Positions 5,531 to 23,469 of a DNA stretch of 38,607 bases are shown piece after piece (positions within the stretch are counted from its first letter, which is position 1; the number at the start of each line of letters is the position of its first letter). This DNA is from Actinomycetes bacterium (GTDB lineage: Bacteria; Actinomycetota; Actinomycetes; Mycobacteriales; Mycobacteriaceae), in contig JAJYRZ010000003.1 in NCBI GenBank assembly GCA_021793835.1, forward strand, positions 1 through 38,607. The letters are read 5' to 3'. The position numbers were made by a program, and so were the translations under genes. The notes beneath the pieces are model-generated. The model did not search any database, was not told where the DNA came from, and saw only the letters and a program-made list of their open reading frames with translations.

Positions 5531-6610
5531 TCAGCCGTCCGCGGACTGGCCCTCTTCGACGTTCATCAACCGCAGGATCCTTTCGAGATCATCGACGGTC
5601 GAGAACTCGACGACGATCTTGCCCTTGCGCTTGCCGAGGTTGACCGTCACCTTGGTGTCGAAGTCGTTGGACAGCCGATCGGCCACCCGCTGCAGTCCCG
5701 GCATCTCGATGGGCTTGCGTCGCTTGGGTGCCTCGGCGCCGGCGGCCGCGTCCGCACCGGCCCGGTTGGCCAGCACCACGGCCTCCTCGGTGGCGCGCAC
5801 CGTCATGCCCTCGGCGACGATCCGGGCGGCCAGCTGCTCCTGTGCCTCGGCGCCCGCCTCGAGCGAGAGCAGGGCACGGGCGTGGCCGGCGCTGAGGATC
5901 CCCGCGGCGACCCGGCGCTGCACCGGCACGGGCAGCCGCAGCAGGCGGATCGTATTGGACACCACCGGGCGTGAGCGCCCGATCCGCGCGGCGAGTTCCT
6001 CGTGGGTGACGTCGAACTCCTCGAGCAGCTGCTGATAGGCCGCCGCCTCCTCGAGAGGATTGAGCTGCACGCGGTGGATGTTCTCCAGCAGCGCATCGCG
6101 CAGCATCGCGTCATCGGCGGTCTCACGCACGATGGCCGGGATCGTCTCGATCTCGGCCACCCGGCTTGCACGCCATCGGCGCTCACCCATGATCAGCTGG
6201 AAGCGACCGTCCTCGATCTCCCGGACGACGATCGGCTGCATGAGCCCGAACTCGGTGATCGAGTGGACGAGCTCGGCCAGTGCTTCTTCGTCGAAGACCT
6301 GGCGCGGCTGCTTCGGGTTCGGCTCGATCGCCTCGACCGGGATCTCCCGATAGACCGCGCCGATCGAGTCGGTGCCCCCGTCTGCGGTGGGGGAGGGGAG
6401 GGGCGCTGCGGTGTCGTCGTCAGCCGCCGCGGTCTGCGACGCCGACTCCTGCTCCGGCTCCGGCGCACTGTCGTCGGCCTCGGTCTCCGGGCGCGGACCG
6501 CCGAGCACGACGTTGGCCGCGGCGTCTCCCATGCGCGGTCCCTCGGTGGGTCCGGTGGGGATCAGTGCGGCCAGGCCGCGCCCCAGTCCACCCCTGCGAG
6601 ACTGACTCAT
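5531..6610 (-). CDS. parB: Chromosome partitioning protein ParB
   Basis: [71 protein letters not shown]. Confidence 0.97.
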
Positions 6611-6611
6611 T

Positions 6612-7538
6612 TCATTGCTCCTGACCGGTGTTCATCGCTGCCGCCCGCTCCGTCATCTCGCGGCCCGCATCCAGATAACTCAGTGCCCCACGGGATCCCG
6701 GGTCGTACTCCAGGATCGTCATCCCGTATCCGGGTGCCTCGGAGATCTTGACGCTGCGGGGGATCACGGTGCGCAGGACGATGTCACCGAAGTGCTTGCG
6801 CACCTCGTCGGCGACCTGGCCGGCCAGCTTGGTGCGGCCGTCGTACATGGTCAGCAGGATCGTCGACACGTGCAGAGAACGGTTCAGGTGGGCCTGGACC
6901 AGTTCGATGTTGCGCAGCAGCTGACCGACACCTTCGAGCGCGTAGTACTCGCACTGGATCGGCAGCAGCACCTCGCGGGCGGCGACCAGGGCGTTGACGG
7001 TCAGCAACCCGAGTGAGGGCGGGCAGTCGATCAGGACGTAGTCGATCTCCATCTCGTCGAGGATCGTCTCGTCGAGCGCATTGCGCAGCCGCCCCTCACG
7101 GGCGACCATCGACACCAGCTCGATCTCCGCACCAGCGAGATCGATCGTGGCGGGCACGCAGTAGAGGTTCGGATCGTGCGGGCTGGCGTGTACGGCCTCG
7201 CGCAGGTCGATCTCACCGATCAGTAGTTCGTAGGTCGACGGCACGCCCGAGCGGTGATCGACGCCGAGCGCCGTACTGGAGTTGCCCTGCGGATCCAGGT
7301 CGATGACGATCACGCGCTGGCCGTGTGCGGCGAGCGCCGCGGCGAGGTTCACCGCGGTCGTGGTCTTACCGACCCCGCCCTTCTGGTTCGCGATCGTGAT
7401 GATCCGGCGCTGCGCCGGCCGGGGCAGGCCCTCGGTTCCATCGGCCCGGATGCCGACCACGGCGTCCCCCTCGCGCGCGCCGCCCGTCGACGGATCCCCG
7501 GGTGTTTCATGTGAAACATCGGTGCGGGTATCGGTCAC
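6612..7538 (-). CDS. parA: Chromosome partitioning ATPase ParA
   Basis: [41 protein letters not shown] deviant Walker A. Confidence 0.97.
7503..7518. promoter_or_regulatory. parS-like site 1 (TGTTTCATGTGAAACA)
   Basis: 15/16 to TGTTTCACGTGAAACA; lies inside the parA 5' coding end. Confidence 0.85.
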
Positions 7539-7656
7539 TGCTCTGCCCCCTCATGGTCATCGGTCCGACGGACCGCGGTGGTCGTCGGCCGGACTTCATT
7601 GTGCCCGCTGGCGCCGCGGCCGGCGGCGTTCGCGGTCGGTCGCTGCGGCACGCGGC

Positions 7657-8334
7657 TCACCGGCGCCGTCCGCCCCGGCGGTGCGCGGCACGCACCGCCT
7701 GCACGATCGTGGTCGGCGTCTCGAGGAGCTCCTCACCGCTCAGCAGGACCTCGATCTCGACGACGCCGAGCCGATCCAGCGATGGACGGGCCCGCTCGAT
7801 CTCGTCGGCCGCGGACGAGCCCTTGAGCGCCACCATCTTGCCGCCCTCACGGACCAGGGGCAGGGACCAGCCGAGCAGCTTCTCCAGCGGGGCCACGGCA
7901 CGGGAGGTCACATAGTCGGCGCCGCCGACCTCCCGGATCACCCCGGGCTGTTCGGCGCGGCCGCGCACCACGGTCACCGGAAGGTCGAGATCCTTGACCA
8001 CCTCACCGAGGAACGTGGTCCGTCGCAACAGCGGTTCGACCAGGACCACGGTCAGGTCCGGCCGTGCGATCGCCAGCGGGATGCCGGGCAGTCCGGCACC
8101 GCTGCCGACGTCGACCACCCGCGCCCCCTGGTCGACGACCTCGCCGAGCACGGCACAGTTCAGGATGTGCCGACTCCAGAGGCGGTCGACCTCGCGGGGG
8201 CCGATCAGTCCGCGGGTGACGCCCTCACCGGCGAGCCACTGCGCGTACTTAACCGCGATCGGTAACCGATCGCCGAAGATCTGCGCGGCTACGCCTTCGA
8301 GTTCGGCGGGGACCTGTGGTTCCACGTGAAACAT
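7657..8334 (-). CDS. rsmG: 16S rRNA (guanine(527)-N(7))-methyltransferase RsmG (GidB)
   Basis: [48 protein letters not shown]..., [22 protein letters not shown]; the ORF track extends the start to 8430 but MFHVEP at 8334 is the likelier start. Confidence 0.94.
8318..8333. promoter_or_regulatory. parS-like site 2 (GGTTCCACGTGAAACA)
   Basis: 14/16 to consensus; overlaps the first codons of rsmG. Confidence 0.8.
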
Positions 8335-8690
8335 CCTGACTGGTCGACAACGACATGCAGTTCTCAATACCGGCCGCACACATGCGGCGGTGCTGTCCGC
8401 CATTGTCCCGCGAAGGAGTGGACCTGCCAAATGAAACGCGATGACCGCCCCTGCTCACGCCTGCGGTTCACACCGGCCGGACACCGGGGATCACACACAC
8501 ATCGGCCCACCGAACCTTCCGTGGAGGGTCCCAGCCCGGCGGCCGAGAGGATGGGCGCCCCTCCCTGCGATAGGGGAGGGGAGGGGTTCGTGGCGTTCGA
8601 TCCGGTCCCACGAATCTGCCGGCCGGCCCATCGGTGGCCGCCATCCGAGCGGAGCTCGGCGATGCATAGGCCGGTGTTCACCGCCGCTAC

Positions 8691-8706
8691 CGTTTCACGT
8701 GAAACG
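8691..8706. promoter_or_regulatory. parS site 3 (CGTTTCACGTGAAACG)
   Basis: Perfect GTTTCACGTGAAAC core palindrome. Confidence 0.93.
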
Positions 8707-9059
8707 GATCGACACGGGTGAGGCTGCCACGATGAGGGGAAGTCGGGCCGGTCGACGAGGCGGCGGACGATCGCCTGCGGTCGGTGTCAGCGAACCTTCG
8801 ATAGGGAACTCATAGGCTCCGACGGTGAGCGTCAAGCACACACGCCCAAGCACTCGTCCCTGATCGTGAGACATCCACCGACACCGGGGCGGGAGTCTTC
8901 CCTACGGGGTCGTACCAAGCACCGAGGCCCGCCCCGGCGTCGGCGTCACGACGACCGTGGCCGGTTACGTACAAGCCCGCGTGCAGTATTTATTCACGAC
9001 GCCTACCGAACCGACCCGCACCTCGCGGTCCCGCGGCCATACGAAGTGCCGGATCGACG

Positions 9060-9075
9060 TGTTTCACGTGAAACT
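9060..9075. promoter_or_regulatory. parS site 4 (TGTTTCACGTGAAACT)
   Basis: 15/16 to consensus, perfect 14 bp core. Confidence 0.93.
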
Positions 9076-9519
9076 CCCGCGCCACCGAGCCCCTTGCCGG
9101 AGAACGACCCGGGAAGCCTGGCCGATGACGCCGCCGATACCTCAGCCGTGGCAGCCCACCTCCAGGGTGCGGGCACCCCGGTATCAGCAGCCTCTGGGGT
9201 CCGCGCATCCTCCGTCGACAGGCCCGGCACACCATCCGGATCTGACCGAGAACACATCCCGTCTCCGGCGCGCCATCCCGGGATGCCTCCATGATCCGCG
9301 ATGCAGATACGCCCTCAGAGCCCACTCGACGCGGCCCTCGACCTTCATCGAGGACGCACAGTCACTCCTCGGCGACCGCCGGCGAGCCCCGGGGGCGCAC
9401 GCGAACCGGGCGCCGGCCGATCTCCAGCCGGGCCTTGACCGGAGACCGCATAGCGATGACTCAACTCGCCGCAACCTCCGCAGTACGTGCCCCGGCCGCA
9501 GGTGCCGCCGCCCTAGGCA

Positions 9520-9535
9520 GGTTTCACGTGAAACG
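9520..9535. promoter_or_regulatory. parS site 5 (GGTTTCACGTGAAACG)
   Basis: Perfect 14 bp core GTTTCACGTGAAAC at 9521-9534. Confidence 0.93.
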
Positions 9536-9880
9536 TGATGACTGTCGGCGGCTCGGGCGGACCCGCGCTTCTACGCACACACCCCGCGGCTCCACCGCCG
9601 GAACGGCCTGGGACCTTTTGGAGAGCGCACCCCCGGCGACCACCCCCGCCTGAGGAAGACACTGTGTTCCCGCGAGACCCGGCGCCCGGTCGCCGCGCCG
9701 ATCGAGCCGATCAGGAACCCGAAGGGGGCGACATCACCCGGCACAGTCGCGCCGCAGCCGGATTCTGCGAAGCCACACGCAACTCCCCTCCGAATCGTCA
9801 AACAGCCGCTTCAAGGATCGTCGCAGACCTAACCAAGGACACCAGCGAGTAACGTCACTGTGACAGACGGTGGGTGTGGG

Positions 9881-9927
9881 AGAAAACCGGCGGGCCCGAT
9901 CGGTCTAGATGACCGATCGGGCCCGCC
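9881..9927 (-). terminator. Intrinsic terminator downstream of the jag/yidC/rnpA/rpmH set
   Basis: Perfect 16 bp stem GGCGGGCCCGATCGGT (9889-9904) / ACCGATCGGGCCCGCC (9912-9927), 7 nt loop, then TTTTCT reading on the minus strand. Confidence 0.88.
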
Positions 9928-9943
9928 AGGGGTCTGCGCGAGA

Positions 9944-10477
9944 TCAGCGCGGCAGCACGACCACCCGACGCGAGGATCCGACGCCCTCGCTCTCGGAGAA
10001 CACGCCGTCGACCGTGGCGACCGCGTCGTGCACGACCTTGCGCTCGAAAGGCGTCATGGGGGAGAGCTCCTCGGAGGTGCCGGACTCGGCGACCCGCTTG
10101 GCCACCTCCAGTCCGCTCTCGGTCAGCTCGTCGCGCCGACGCGCACGCCAGCCCGCGACGTCGAGCATCAGTCGGCTGCGCACACCGGTCTGCTGGAGCA
10201 CCGCCAACCGGGTCAGCTCCTGCAGGGCATCGAGCACCTCGCCCTTGCGGCCGACCAGACGGTCGAGGTCCCCGCCGCCCTCGATGCTCACCACCGCACG
10301 GTCGCCCTCGACGTCGAGGTCGATGTCGCCGTCGTAGTCGAAGATGTCCAGCAACTGCTCCAGGTAGTCGCCGGCGATCTCGCCTTCTTCGACGAGGAGT
10401 TCTTCGCCTTCGAGGCGCTCCTCACCGGAGGTCTTGTCGTCATCCCGCTCGTTCTGCCCCACGGTGTGACACTCCAT
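9944..10477 (-). CDS. jag: Jag/KhpB-like R3H and KH domain RNA-binding protein
   Basis: KH-like GRKGEVLDALQELTRLAV and R3H-like MTPFERKVVHDAVATVDGVFSESEG; adjacent to yidC. Confidence 0.92.
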   Translation of the reverse strand: MECHTVGQNERDDDKTSGEERLEGEELLVEEGEIAGDYLEQLLDIFDYDGDIDLDVEGDRAVVSIEGGGDLDRLVGRKGEVLDALQELTRLAVLQQTGVRSRLMLDVAGWRARRRDELTESGLEVAKRVAESGTSEELSPMTPFERKVVHDAVATVDGVFSESEGVGSSRRVVVLPR

Positions 10478-10538
10478 TCTTCTGTCTGACCCGGACCGCC
10501 CGGGTGGTCTGTCGATGTTGCGGTGAGTCGGTGTCGGG

Positions 10539-11756
10539 CTAGCGCCGCTTCTTCCTGCTCTTACCGCCGCCGGACTTCTTGCCCTTGGCGCCGCCCTTAC
10601 CGCCGCCGCCCTTGTTCTTCACCGGAGGGGAACCGGGCTTCTTCGCGCCGCCGCCCTGCTGCTGTTGACGCTGGAGCTTGGCCTCGCGGCGCTCACGCAC
10701 CGACAGTCCGTCGCCGGCCGGCTCGGTCGCCGTGGTCTCGGTCGGTGCGTCGTCGCCGGTCTCCGTGCCCTCGTGCTGTCCCTCGACCTCGGAGACCGCG
10801 GTGGCCTTACCCGACGCGGCCGGACCGCGCCGACCCTTCTTGCCGACCTGCGGAACCGCGCCCGGCTTGGGGGCCCGCTGCGAGCGGATCTCCTGGGCGC
10901 GCTGCTTCTTGGCCTCTTCTTCCTTCTCGATCTGGCCGAAGATGATGTGCTGCTGGCCGACGGTCCACGCGTTGTTGGCCACCCAGTAGATCAGGATCGC
11001 GACCGGCAGGAAGGCACCCGACACCAGCACGCCGAGCGGGAAGACGTACAGGGCCAGCTTGTTCATGATCCGGGCCTGCGGCTGGGCCGCGGCCTCCGGG
11101 CTCTGCCGCTCGACCGAGGCGCGCGAGTTCAGGTGGGTGGCGACGGCGGCGATGATCATCAGCGGAATCGCCACGGCCGCGATCTGCCACCGCTCGGGGA
11201 TGCCGCTGTACATCGCGAACGCCTCGAGCTGGCTGACCGGCTGCGAGATGAACGACGACAGCGGGACGCCGAAGATGTTCGCGCTCAGGAACTCCCGCAC
11301 GTCCTCGGCGCTGAACATGTAGTTCGACAGCTGGGCGTTCTCTTCCGGCGTCAGTCCGAGCTGGTTGAAGCTGGTGCCGGTGCGGTTGAACGAGCGCAGC
11401 ACGTGGAACAGGCCGATGAACATCGGGGCCTGAGCCAGTGCCGGCAGGCAGCCGAGCAGCGGGTTGAACCCGTGCTCCTTCTGCAGCTTCTGCATCTCCA
11501 TCGCCATGCGCTGGCGATCGTTCTTGTACTTCTTCTGCAGCGCCTTGATCTGCGGCTGCAGCTCCTGCATCTGCCGGGTGGTACGGATCTGCTTGGCCGC
11601 CGGCCAGTACAGCACCATGCGCAGGGTGAAGACCAGGAAGACCACCGACAGGATCCAGGTGATCGCGCTGTCCGGCGCCAGGCCCGGGATGAAGCTGAAG
11701 AGCTTGTACCAGGCCCACATCACGGCCGAGACCGGCCAATAGATGAAGTTCAGCAC
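10539..11756 (-). CDS. yidC: Membrane protein insertase YidC
   Basis: 60KD_IMP features: [29 protein letters not shown], [23 protein letters not shown] region; long basic C-terminal tail. Confidence 0.96.
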
Positions 11757-13197: not shown

Positions 13198-13229
13198 TTT
13201 TCCACACTTGGGGATAATCATGTGGACAA
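13198..13229. promoter_or_regulatory. DnaA-box cluster upstream of dnaA
   Basis: TTTTCCACA 13198-13206, TGGGGATAA 13209-13217, TGTGGACAA 13221-13229 (perfect); further TGTGGACAC at 13074-13082. Confidence 0.75.
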
Positions 13230-15040: not shown

Positions 15041-15285
15041 TCCACACCTGTGGACAACCATGGGGATAACGCGCGTACTCCTGTGGACGGGCGGTGGACA
15101 CAGCCGAGCGACACGATCTGTCCACAATCGGTCCGGAGCACCATCCGCAACCGATCCACAAGCCGACACGCCGTGTGATCTGCACGGTCCAGGCCGTTCC
15201 ACAGACTTCACAGGACCTATTACCACTACTGAGGTTCTTTTCTTCAAGAAAAGAATTACAAAGAAACAGGGGATGTGGACAACGC
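15041..15285. other. oriC: oriC (dnaA-dnaN intergenic origin)
   Basis: DnaA-box-like 9-mers: TGTGGACAA 15049 and 15274, TGGGGATAA 15061, TGTGGACGG 15082, GGTGGACAC 15093, CTGTCCACA 15118, CGATCCACA 15152, CGTTCCACA 15195; AT-rich tract 15219-15268. Confidence 0.9.
15235..15255. repeat. AT-rich palindrome TTCTTTTCTT-C-AAGAAAAGAA in the oriC AT-rich tract
   Basis: Perfect 10 bp arms with 1 nt centre. Confidence 0.85.

Positions 15286-20961: not shown

Positions 20962-23469
<2,508 letters not shown>

Follow-up and report, generated by a model that had tools for sequence, protein, structure and literature searches.

A gene-free interval of 1609 bp that separates jag from rsmG in a Tomitella genome, and that holds three perfect parS sites, probably acts as an origin-proximal loading zone for ParB, that is, as the main cis-acting centromere, laid out on DNA whose sequence between the sites is free to change. 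A sequence-only reading had suggested that the length of this gap may itself serve as a loading platform for ParB or SMC. Much of what that suggestion implies for the DNA is observed: the interval is non-coding and parS-rich, its counterparts recur across genera, longer gaps have more parS sites, and in alignable relatives the chief conserved element is parS. We infer ParB occupancy, SMC loading, absence of transcription, and selection on the length or gene-freeness of the spacer. Functionally, the element is a ParABS centromere, a known kind: in the window (the whole 38.6-kb stretch of DNA analyzed here), multiple near-consensus parS sites lie close to oriC and to parA and parB, and parA, parB and the SMC gene, which is present in the genome, are intact.

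The jag-rsmG interval of the window

The source genome (Tomitella; 270 contigs, 81% complete) is taken to be a metagenome-assembled genome, and in an assembly this fragmented, a 1.6-kb gap might in principle be a misjoin. We consider such an artefact extremely improbable, given that the GC content of the gap (67.7%) is close to that of the window (69.9%), the surrounding gene order is the same as in relatives, three intact parS sites lie inside the gap, and many isolate genomes show the same architecture. The gap, originally estimated at about 1.5 kb, is real but extends some 60 bp further than first described, from the rsmG start codon (ATG at 8334) to the jag stop codon at 9944. No other non-coding stretch in the window is as long; the rnpA-dnaA region comes next. 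The genes yidC, jag, rsmG, parA and parB are all encoded on the minus strand and dnaA on the plus strand (Table 1). Orthologs of jag are present in 29 of the 30 genera of the family; in the genus denoted g3 (e.g., G006 and G036; genomes of 2.2-3.0 Mb), none of the ten sampled genomes yielded a jag match.

Table 1. Annotated features of the window around the jag-rsmG interval
Feature	Coordinates	Strand	Basis
parB, GERRWRA CTP-binding motif	5531..6610	-	TIGR00180, E=2e-61
parA, ParA-family ATPase, KGGVGKTT Walker motif	6612..7538	-	adjoins parB; 82-85% amino acid identity to other Tomitella
parS variant, one core mismatch, within first parA codons	7503..7518	.	pattern search
rsmG (gidB)	7657..8334	-	TIGR00138, E=6.9e-38
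parS variant, one core mismatch, within first rsmG codons (MFHVEP)	8318..8333	.	pattern search
gene-free jag-rsmG intergenic region, proposed parS platform	8335..9943	.	codon bias, coverage, family/homologue searches
sigma-70-like promoter match, TTGGCA-17-GACAAT, upstream of rsmG-parA-parB	8402..8430	-	consensus match only
parS, perfect 14-bp core CGTTTCACGTGAAACG	8691..8706	.	16-mer and core pattern search
parS, perfect 14-bp core TGTTTCACGTGAAACT	9060..9075	.	16-mer and core pattern search
parS, perfect 14-bp core GGTTTCACGTGAAACG	9520..9535	.	16-mer and core pattern search
predicted intrinsic terminator of jag transcript, 19-bp stem, 5-nt loop, T run	9887..9929	-	sequence prediction
jag, KhpB/EloR-like RNA-binding protein	9944..10477	-	NF041568, E=2.5e-28, below curated cut-off
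yidC	10539..11756	-	NF002899, E=4e-159
dnaA	13398..14885	+	TIGR00362, E=2e-147

The gap was said to contain no open reading frame resembling a known protein, and this holds by every measure applied. The codon-bias score of its best segment (8.5) falls within the range of shuffled sequences (5.2-11.8) and is about one tenth of the scores of the neighboring jag and rsmG genes (83-87); the longest open frame is no longer than in shuffles (P=0.27); the ten ORFs of 8335-9943 have no significant match in Pfam or NCBIfam; and an Rfam search across 7300-10600 found no match up to E=1, so that the region does not qualify as a structured RNA gene. A hidden protein-coding gene and an RNA gene in the window gap were accordingly rejected. 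Similarity searches against phages and plasmids detected no homolog, and comparison with 150 genomes of the family returned only short (28-71 nt), chance-like matches, on which grounds a mobile or foreign origin was rejected as well; together with the Pfam and NCBIfam searches, these comparisons revealed no recognizable remains of a protein or a mobile element. The DnaA box TTNTCCACA is absent from 8335-9943, which led us to reject a second oriC; in the window, such boxes are found at 13198-13229 and at 15049-15282, including those at 15049 and 15274 in the dnaA-dnaN region.

The 16-mer TGTTTCACGTGAAACA has five matches in the window (starting at 7503, 8318, 8691, 9060 and 9520), where 0.00 are expected from 100 dinucleotide shuffles. 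Over the 14-bp core, the sites at 8692, 9061 and 9521 match perfectly, and those at 8319 (start of rsmG) and 7504 (start of parA) deviate at one base each. No further parS occurs in the remainder of the window, which reaches 24 kb past dnaA. The distance from the platform to parA is about 1-2 kb, and to dnaA about 4 kb. The three gap sites and the one at the rsmG start had all been placed correctly beforehand, as had their spacings of 373, 369 and 460 bp. This regularity (coefficient of variation 0.11; P=0.013 for the window alone) was rejected as a signal since the median across 27 loci is 0.67 and the window, being the most even of them, is a selected example. Outside the window, the same genome has another perfect parS on a small contig (G000:C1:2016; L183:2016), which overlaps the start of a 238-aa ORF.

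The predicted jag terminator includes a perfect 17-bp stem, and its best 45-nt MFE is -41.8, compared to a mean of -14.6 inside the gap; among the long-gap loci, to which this check was confined, a strong hairpin follows jag in 20 of 20. The only promoter-like site of the region is located at the opposite end, about 70 bp before rsmG and on the same strand as that gene. Judging from these two predicted signals, the interior of the gap may be shielded from transcription on its strand.

Junction gaps and parS sites across Mycobacteriales

Gap sizes were measured in loci close to the window ParB and in a sample of 84 genomes from the family and the order (selected by us from evenly drawn lists, with at most about five per genus), with a junction gap of at least 1 kb counted as long. 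A long gap at either the jag-rsmG or the rsmG-parA junction is present in 32 of the 84 Mycobacteriales genomes, and in none of them are both junctions long. Most Rhodococcus have gaps of 1.6-5.3 kb with up to eight parS sites, and Speluncibacter, the sister genus of Tomitella, has a 3.3-kb gap with three; Nocardia, Tsukamurella, Antrihabitans and the R. ruber group have theirs between rsmG and parA, and the R. corynebacterioides group has no long gap. In the Mycobacterium-group loci examined, jag and rsmG are 31-67 bp apart, in agreement with the earlier statement that the two genes are nearly adjacent in mycobacteria.

Normal short gaps in sister strains had been named as a sign that the window gap is a recent random insertion, and the relatives bear this out only in part. 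Three of the four sister Tomitella have jag-rsmG gaps of 294-304 bp, whereas the fourth, T. biformata, has one of 1725 bp that consists of decayed MFS and TetR-like genes (L001, 6640-7520) and lacks parS; its transporter is a frame-broken MFS_1 protein detected with E=2.9e-9 after joining of the frames. In a five-gene tree, Speluncibacter, T. biformata and the window genome have long gaps and the three short-gap Tomitella form a nested sub-clade. Because long gaps are thus also found in Speluncibacter and T. biformata, a loss of length in one sub-clade is no less likely than a recent insertion in the window genome.

The gyr region varies within the same genus. Other Tomitella carry a single parS, a doublet or a triplet between gyrB and gyrA; in two of them (L180 and L181, approximately 7.9-18.4 kb), an interval of about 10.5 kb that contains a parS doublet separates the two genes, and in the window they are 227 bp apart without parS. 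In L180 (G003:C1, 18430-20000), an intein interrupts GyrA at the classic position, following ...AAMRY and continuing CVTADARVRV...; the window gyrA (20962-23469) is intein-free, and that of T. cavernea also matches as a single continuous stretch.

Altogether, 21 of the 32 long gaps are non-coding, and the remaining 11 show a coding signal. Given that genes are found in these 11, the junction also accepts insertions, and the main rival explanation builds on this: the junction would be a hotspot of insertion and decay in which leftover DNA is neutral, parS sites are tolerated at no cost, and length has no function. The dead genes in the parS-less gap of T. biformata fit this scenario, as does a spacer that diverges without constraint (see below). 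Nevertheless, we regard it as rather unlikely. The window gap has no recognizable gene remains, bacteria tend to delete useless DNA, and mutually unalignable gaps keep similar lengths, as in the Rhodococcus loci L008 and L019 (2509 and 2493 bp at 48.5% identity). Insertion alone would spread existing parS sites apart and would not add new ones, yet their number rises with gap length (Spearman correlation of 0.76-0.81; 0.75 for genus medians), both in phylogenetic contrasts (r=0.53, P=1.6e-7) and genome-wide, where sites were counted by pattern search (rho 0.52). In the 84-genome census, 6.3 parS sites lie within about 16 kb when the gap is long and non-coding, compared to 3.2 when it is short (P=3e-8). 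Among the genomes with long gaps, those of the genus denoted g10 (L112-L115) hold a coding stretch of about 200-300 codons plus several parS sites between jag and rsmG.

In long-gap loci, exact sites are concentrated in the gaps and are kept intact. Across 29 loci with a jag-rsmG gap greater than 1 kb, and with the rsmG-parA junction set aside, 95 exact parS sites fall within the gaps (76 kb in total), and the remaining 522 kb of these loci contain none. Sites with 0, 1, 2 and 3 mismatches number 95, 38, 6 and 3, respectively, against expectations of 0, 0.05, 0.15 and 2.8; because decaying intermediates with two or three changes are almost absent, the sites are evidently kept intact. Half-sites show a modest excess in the gaps (34 observed versus about 13 expected from mononucleotide shuffles), and nearly whole sites dominate. 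In the jag-rsmG gap of a genome of about 3.5 Mb from the group denoted g9 (G059:C54:28661-28778), four identical parS variants GTTTCCCGTGAAAC start 33-36 bp apart, which suggests local tandem duplication of parS units.

Divergence of the spacer in Rhodococcus

The window gap has no close relative, so the argument from conservation comes from Rhodococcus, where purifying selection on parS is seen among relatives, and not from Tomitella. Between closely related Rhodococcus, the genes on either side of the gap share about 87-96% identity, and the gap has diverged by 29-42%, compared to 4-10% for the remaining intergenic DNA at these loci. Divergence at four-fold sites in the neighboring genes is 10-40%, depending on pair and gene, and in the alignable long-gap pairs, gap divergence exceeds that of four-fold sites. 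In the pair L003/L024, the gap is the sole segment below 72% identity in 21 kb. By comparison, the identity of the parS cores is 98-100% in four of the five alignable pairs and 90% in the fifth, and the immediate flanks of the sites (48-63% identity) are at the background level, with the far background at 50-69%. Since the aligner may anchor on parS in the most diverged pairs, this conclusion rests mainly on L003/L024 and L012/L018, which are alignable throughout. As far as these alignments tell, the parS sites are under selection and the sequence between them is not. The similar length of gaps that cannot be aligned with each other, as in L008/L019, suggests that gap length may be selected too.

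The same comparisons bear on two further explanations. The gap could harbor an unrecognized small protein or non-coding RNA, and in some gaps of the R. fascians group, the longest open frame is indeed above shuffles (P=0-0.03). However, these frames are not homologous between close relatives (24-37% amino acid identity), the alignable Rhodococcus pair examined shows neither three-base (codon) periodicity of gap substitutions nor a shared long frame, and the divergence in excess of four-fold sites, along with the negative Rfam, Pfam and NCBIfam results for the window, points the same way, so that a gene of this kind is very unlikely.

Alternatively, the gap could be an extended promoter and operator region of rsmG-parAB, where ParB bound at upstream parS sites would autoregulate parAB over a distance. 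ParB represses promoters adjoining parS in Pseudomonas aeruginosa (reviewed in PMC7022226), the promoter-like site at 8430-8402 is compatible with such a leader, and the last 100 bp before rsmG are somewhat better conserved than the gap interior in several pairs. Still, this possibility carries little weight with us: parS sites more than 1 kb upstream are conserved as strictly as the near ones, kilobases of unconstrained spacer are not needed for regulation, and the long gap of Nocardia, Tsukamurella and the R. ruber group occupies the other junction, rsmG-parA.

A candidate ParB loading zone and known partition systems

At parS, ParB is loaded as a clamp with bound CTP, which then slides along the DNA. 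Under the loading-zone interpretation that we prefer, ParB-CTP dimers would load at the three perfect parS sites and at the site in the rsmG start, close into clamps, and slide outwards. Flanked by the jag terminator on one side and the rsmG-parAB promoter on the other, the spacer would be crossed by few elongating polymerases and would provide an unobstructed track on which clamps could accumulate, bridge and recruit SMC, after which ParA would move the origin. A block of this kind, 1.5-5 kb long and with several parS sites, would place many clamps on open DNA beside parAB and pass them on to SMC. The spacer would drift freely with parS alone being kept, and more track would go with more sites.

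Work on other systems bears on this model in both directions. In Corynebacterium glutamicum, the ParB ChIP signal is highest within about 2 kb of parS, and nine of the ten parS sites are intergenic (PMC7083940); in vitro, single DNA-bound proteins block ParB sliding, and ParB can also bypass roadblocks (PMC9242446). A single parS is enough for normal segregation in C. glutamicum (PMC7083940). In vitro, RNA polymerase can pass through ParB clusters with only minor consequences (PMC10681803), and this lessens the case for a track kept clear of transcription. Furthermore, the long gap is dispensable because three sister Tomitella, the R. corynebacterioides group and mycobacteria do without it, and it is best seen as a dispensable enhancement.

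The closest comparison is the C. glutamicum ParABS system, which shares with the window near-consensus, mostly intergenic parS sites clustered near oriC and intact parA, parB and smc; in that bacterium, however, the ten sites are distributed among several intergenic regions within 35 kb of DNA at a distance of 73 kb from oriC (PMC7083940), whereas the window has its sites packed into a single gene-free block of kilobase size that directly adjoins rsmG-parAB and lies about 4 kb from dnaA. Mycobacterial parS sites occur at the starts of rsmG and parA, and the window has such variants as well (8318 and 7503), but in the Mycobacterium-group loci examined, the junctions span from tens of bp to about 140 bp, with one or two parS sites and no gene-free platform. 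The palindrome is the same in Bacillus subtilis and Caulobacter, and loading of the CTP clamp is presumably the same too. Many B. subtilis parS sites lie inside genes, in contrast to the gene-free block of the window, and we know of no gene-free parS block described for either bacterium. An analogy, without homology, can be drawn with eukaryotic regional centromeres, in which the bulk sequence evolves fast while function persists; here, short conserved sites take the place of repeats or epigenetic marking.

A literature search from which subscription journals were largely missing returned no description of a single fast-changing, gene-free block of kilobase size in which the number of parS sites goes with length and which switches between two junctions. 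We put forward, as a tentative generalization that is possible but well short of established, that many Mycobacteriales carry a kilobase-scale, gene-free, transcription-insulated regional centromere, the length and emptiness of which are selected as a track for ParB and SMC, while its non-parS sequence evolves at or above the rate of unconstrained DNA, and which has on several occasions disappeared, reappeared or switched between the jag-rsmG and rsmG-parA junctions.

The parS sites are usually treated as 16-bp points, with their surroundings considered irrelevant. The scaling of parS number with a gene-free spacer that is the fastest-changing part of the origin region, and in which parS nevertheless remains constant, suggests that the surrounding DNA may belong to the centromere, and long-gap and short-gap species within Rhodococcus or Tomitella offer a natural test of whether ParB and SMC make use of a transcription-free track.
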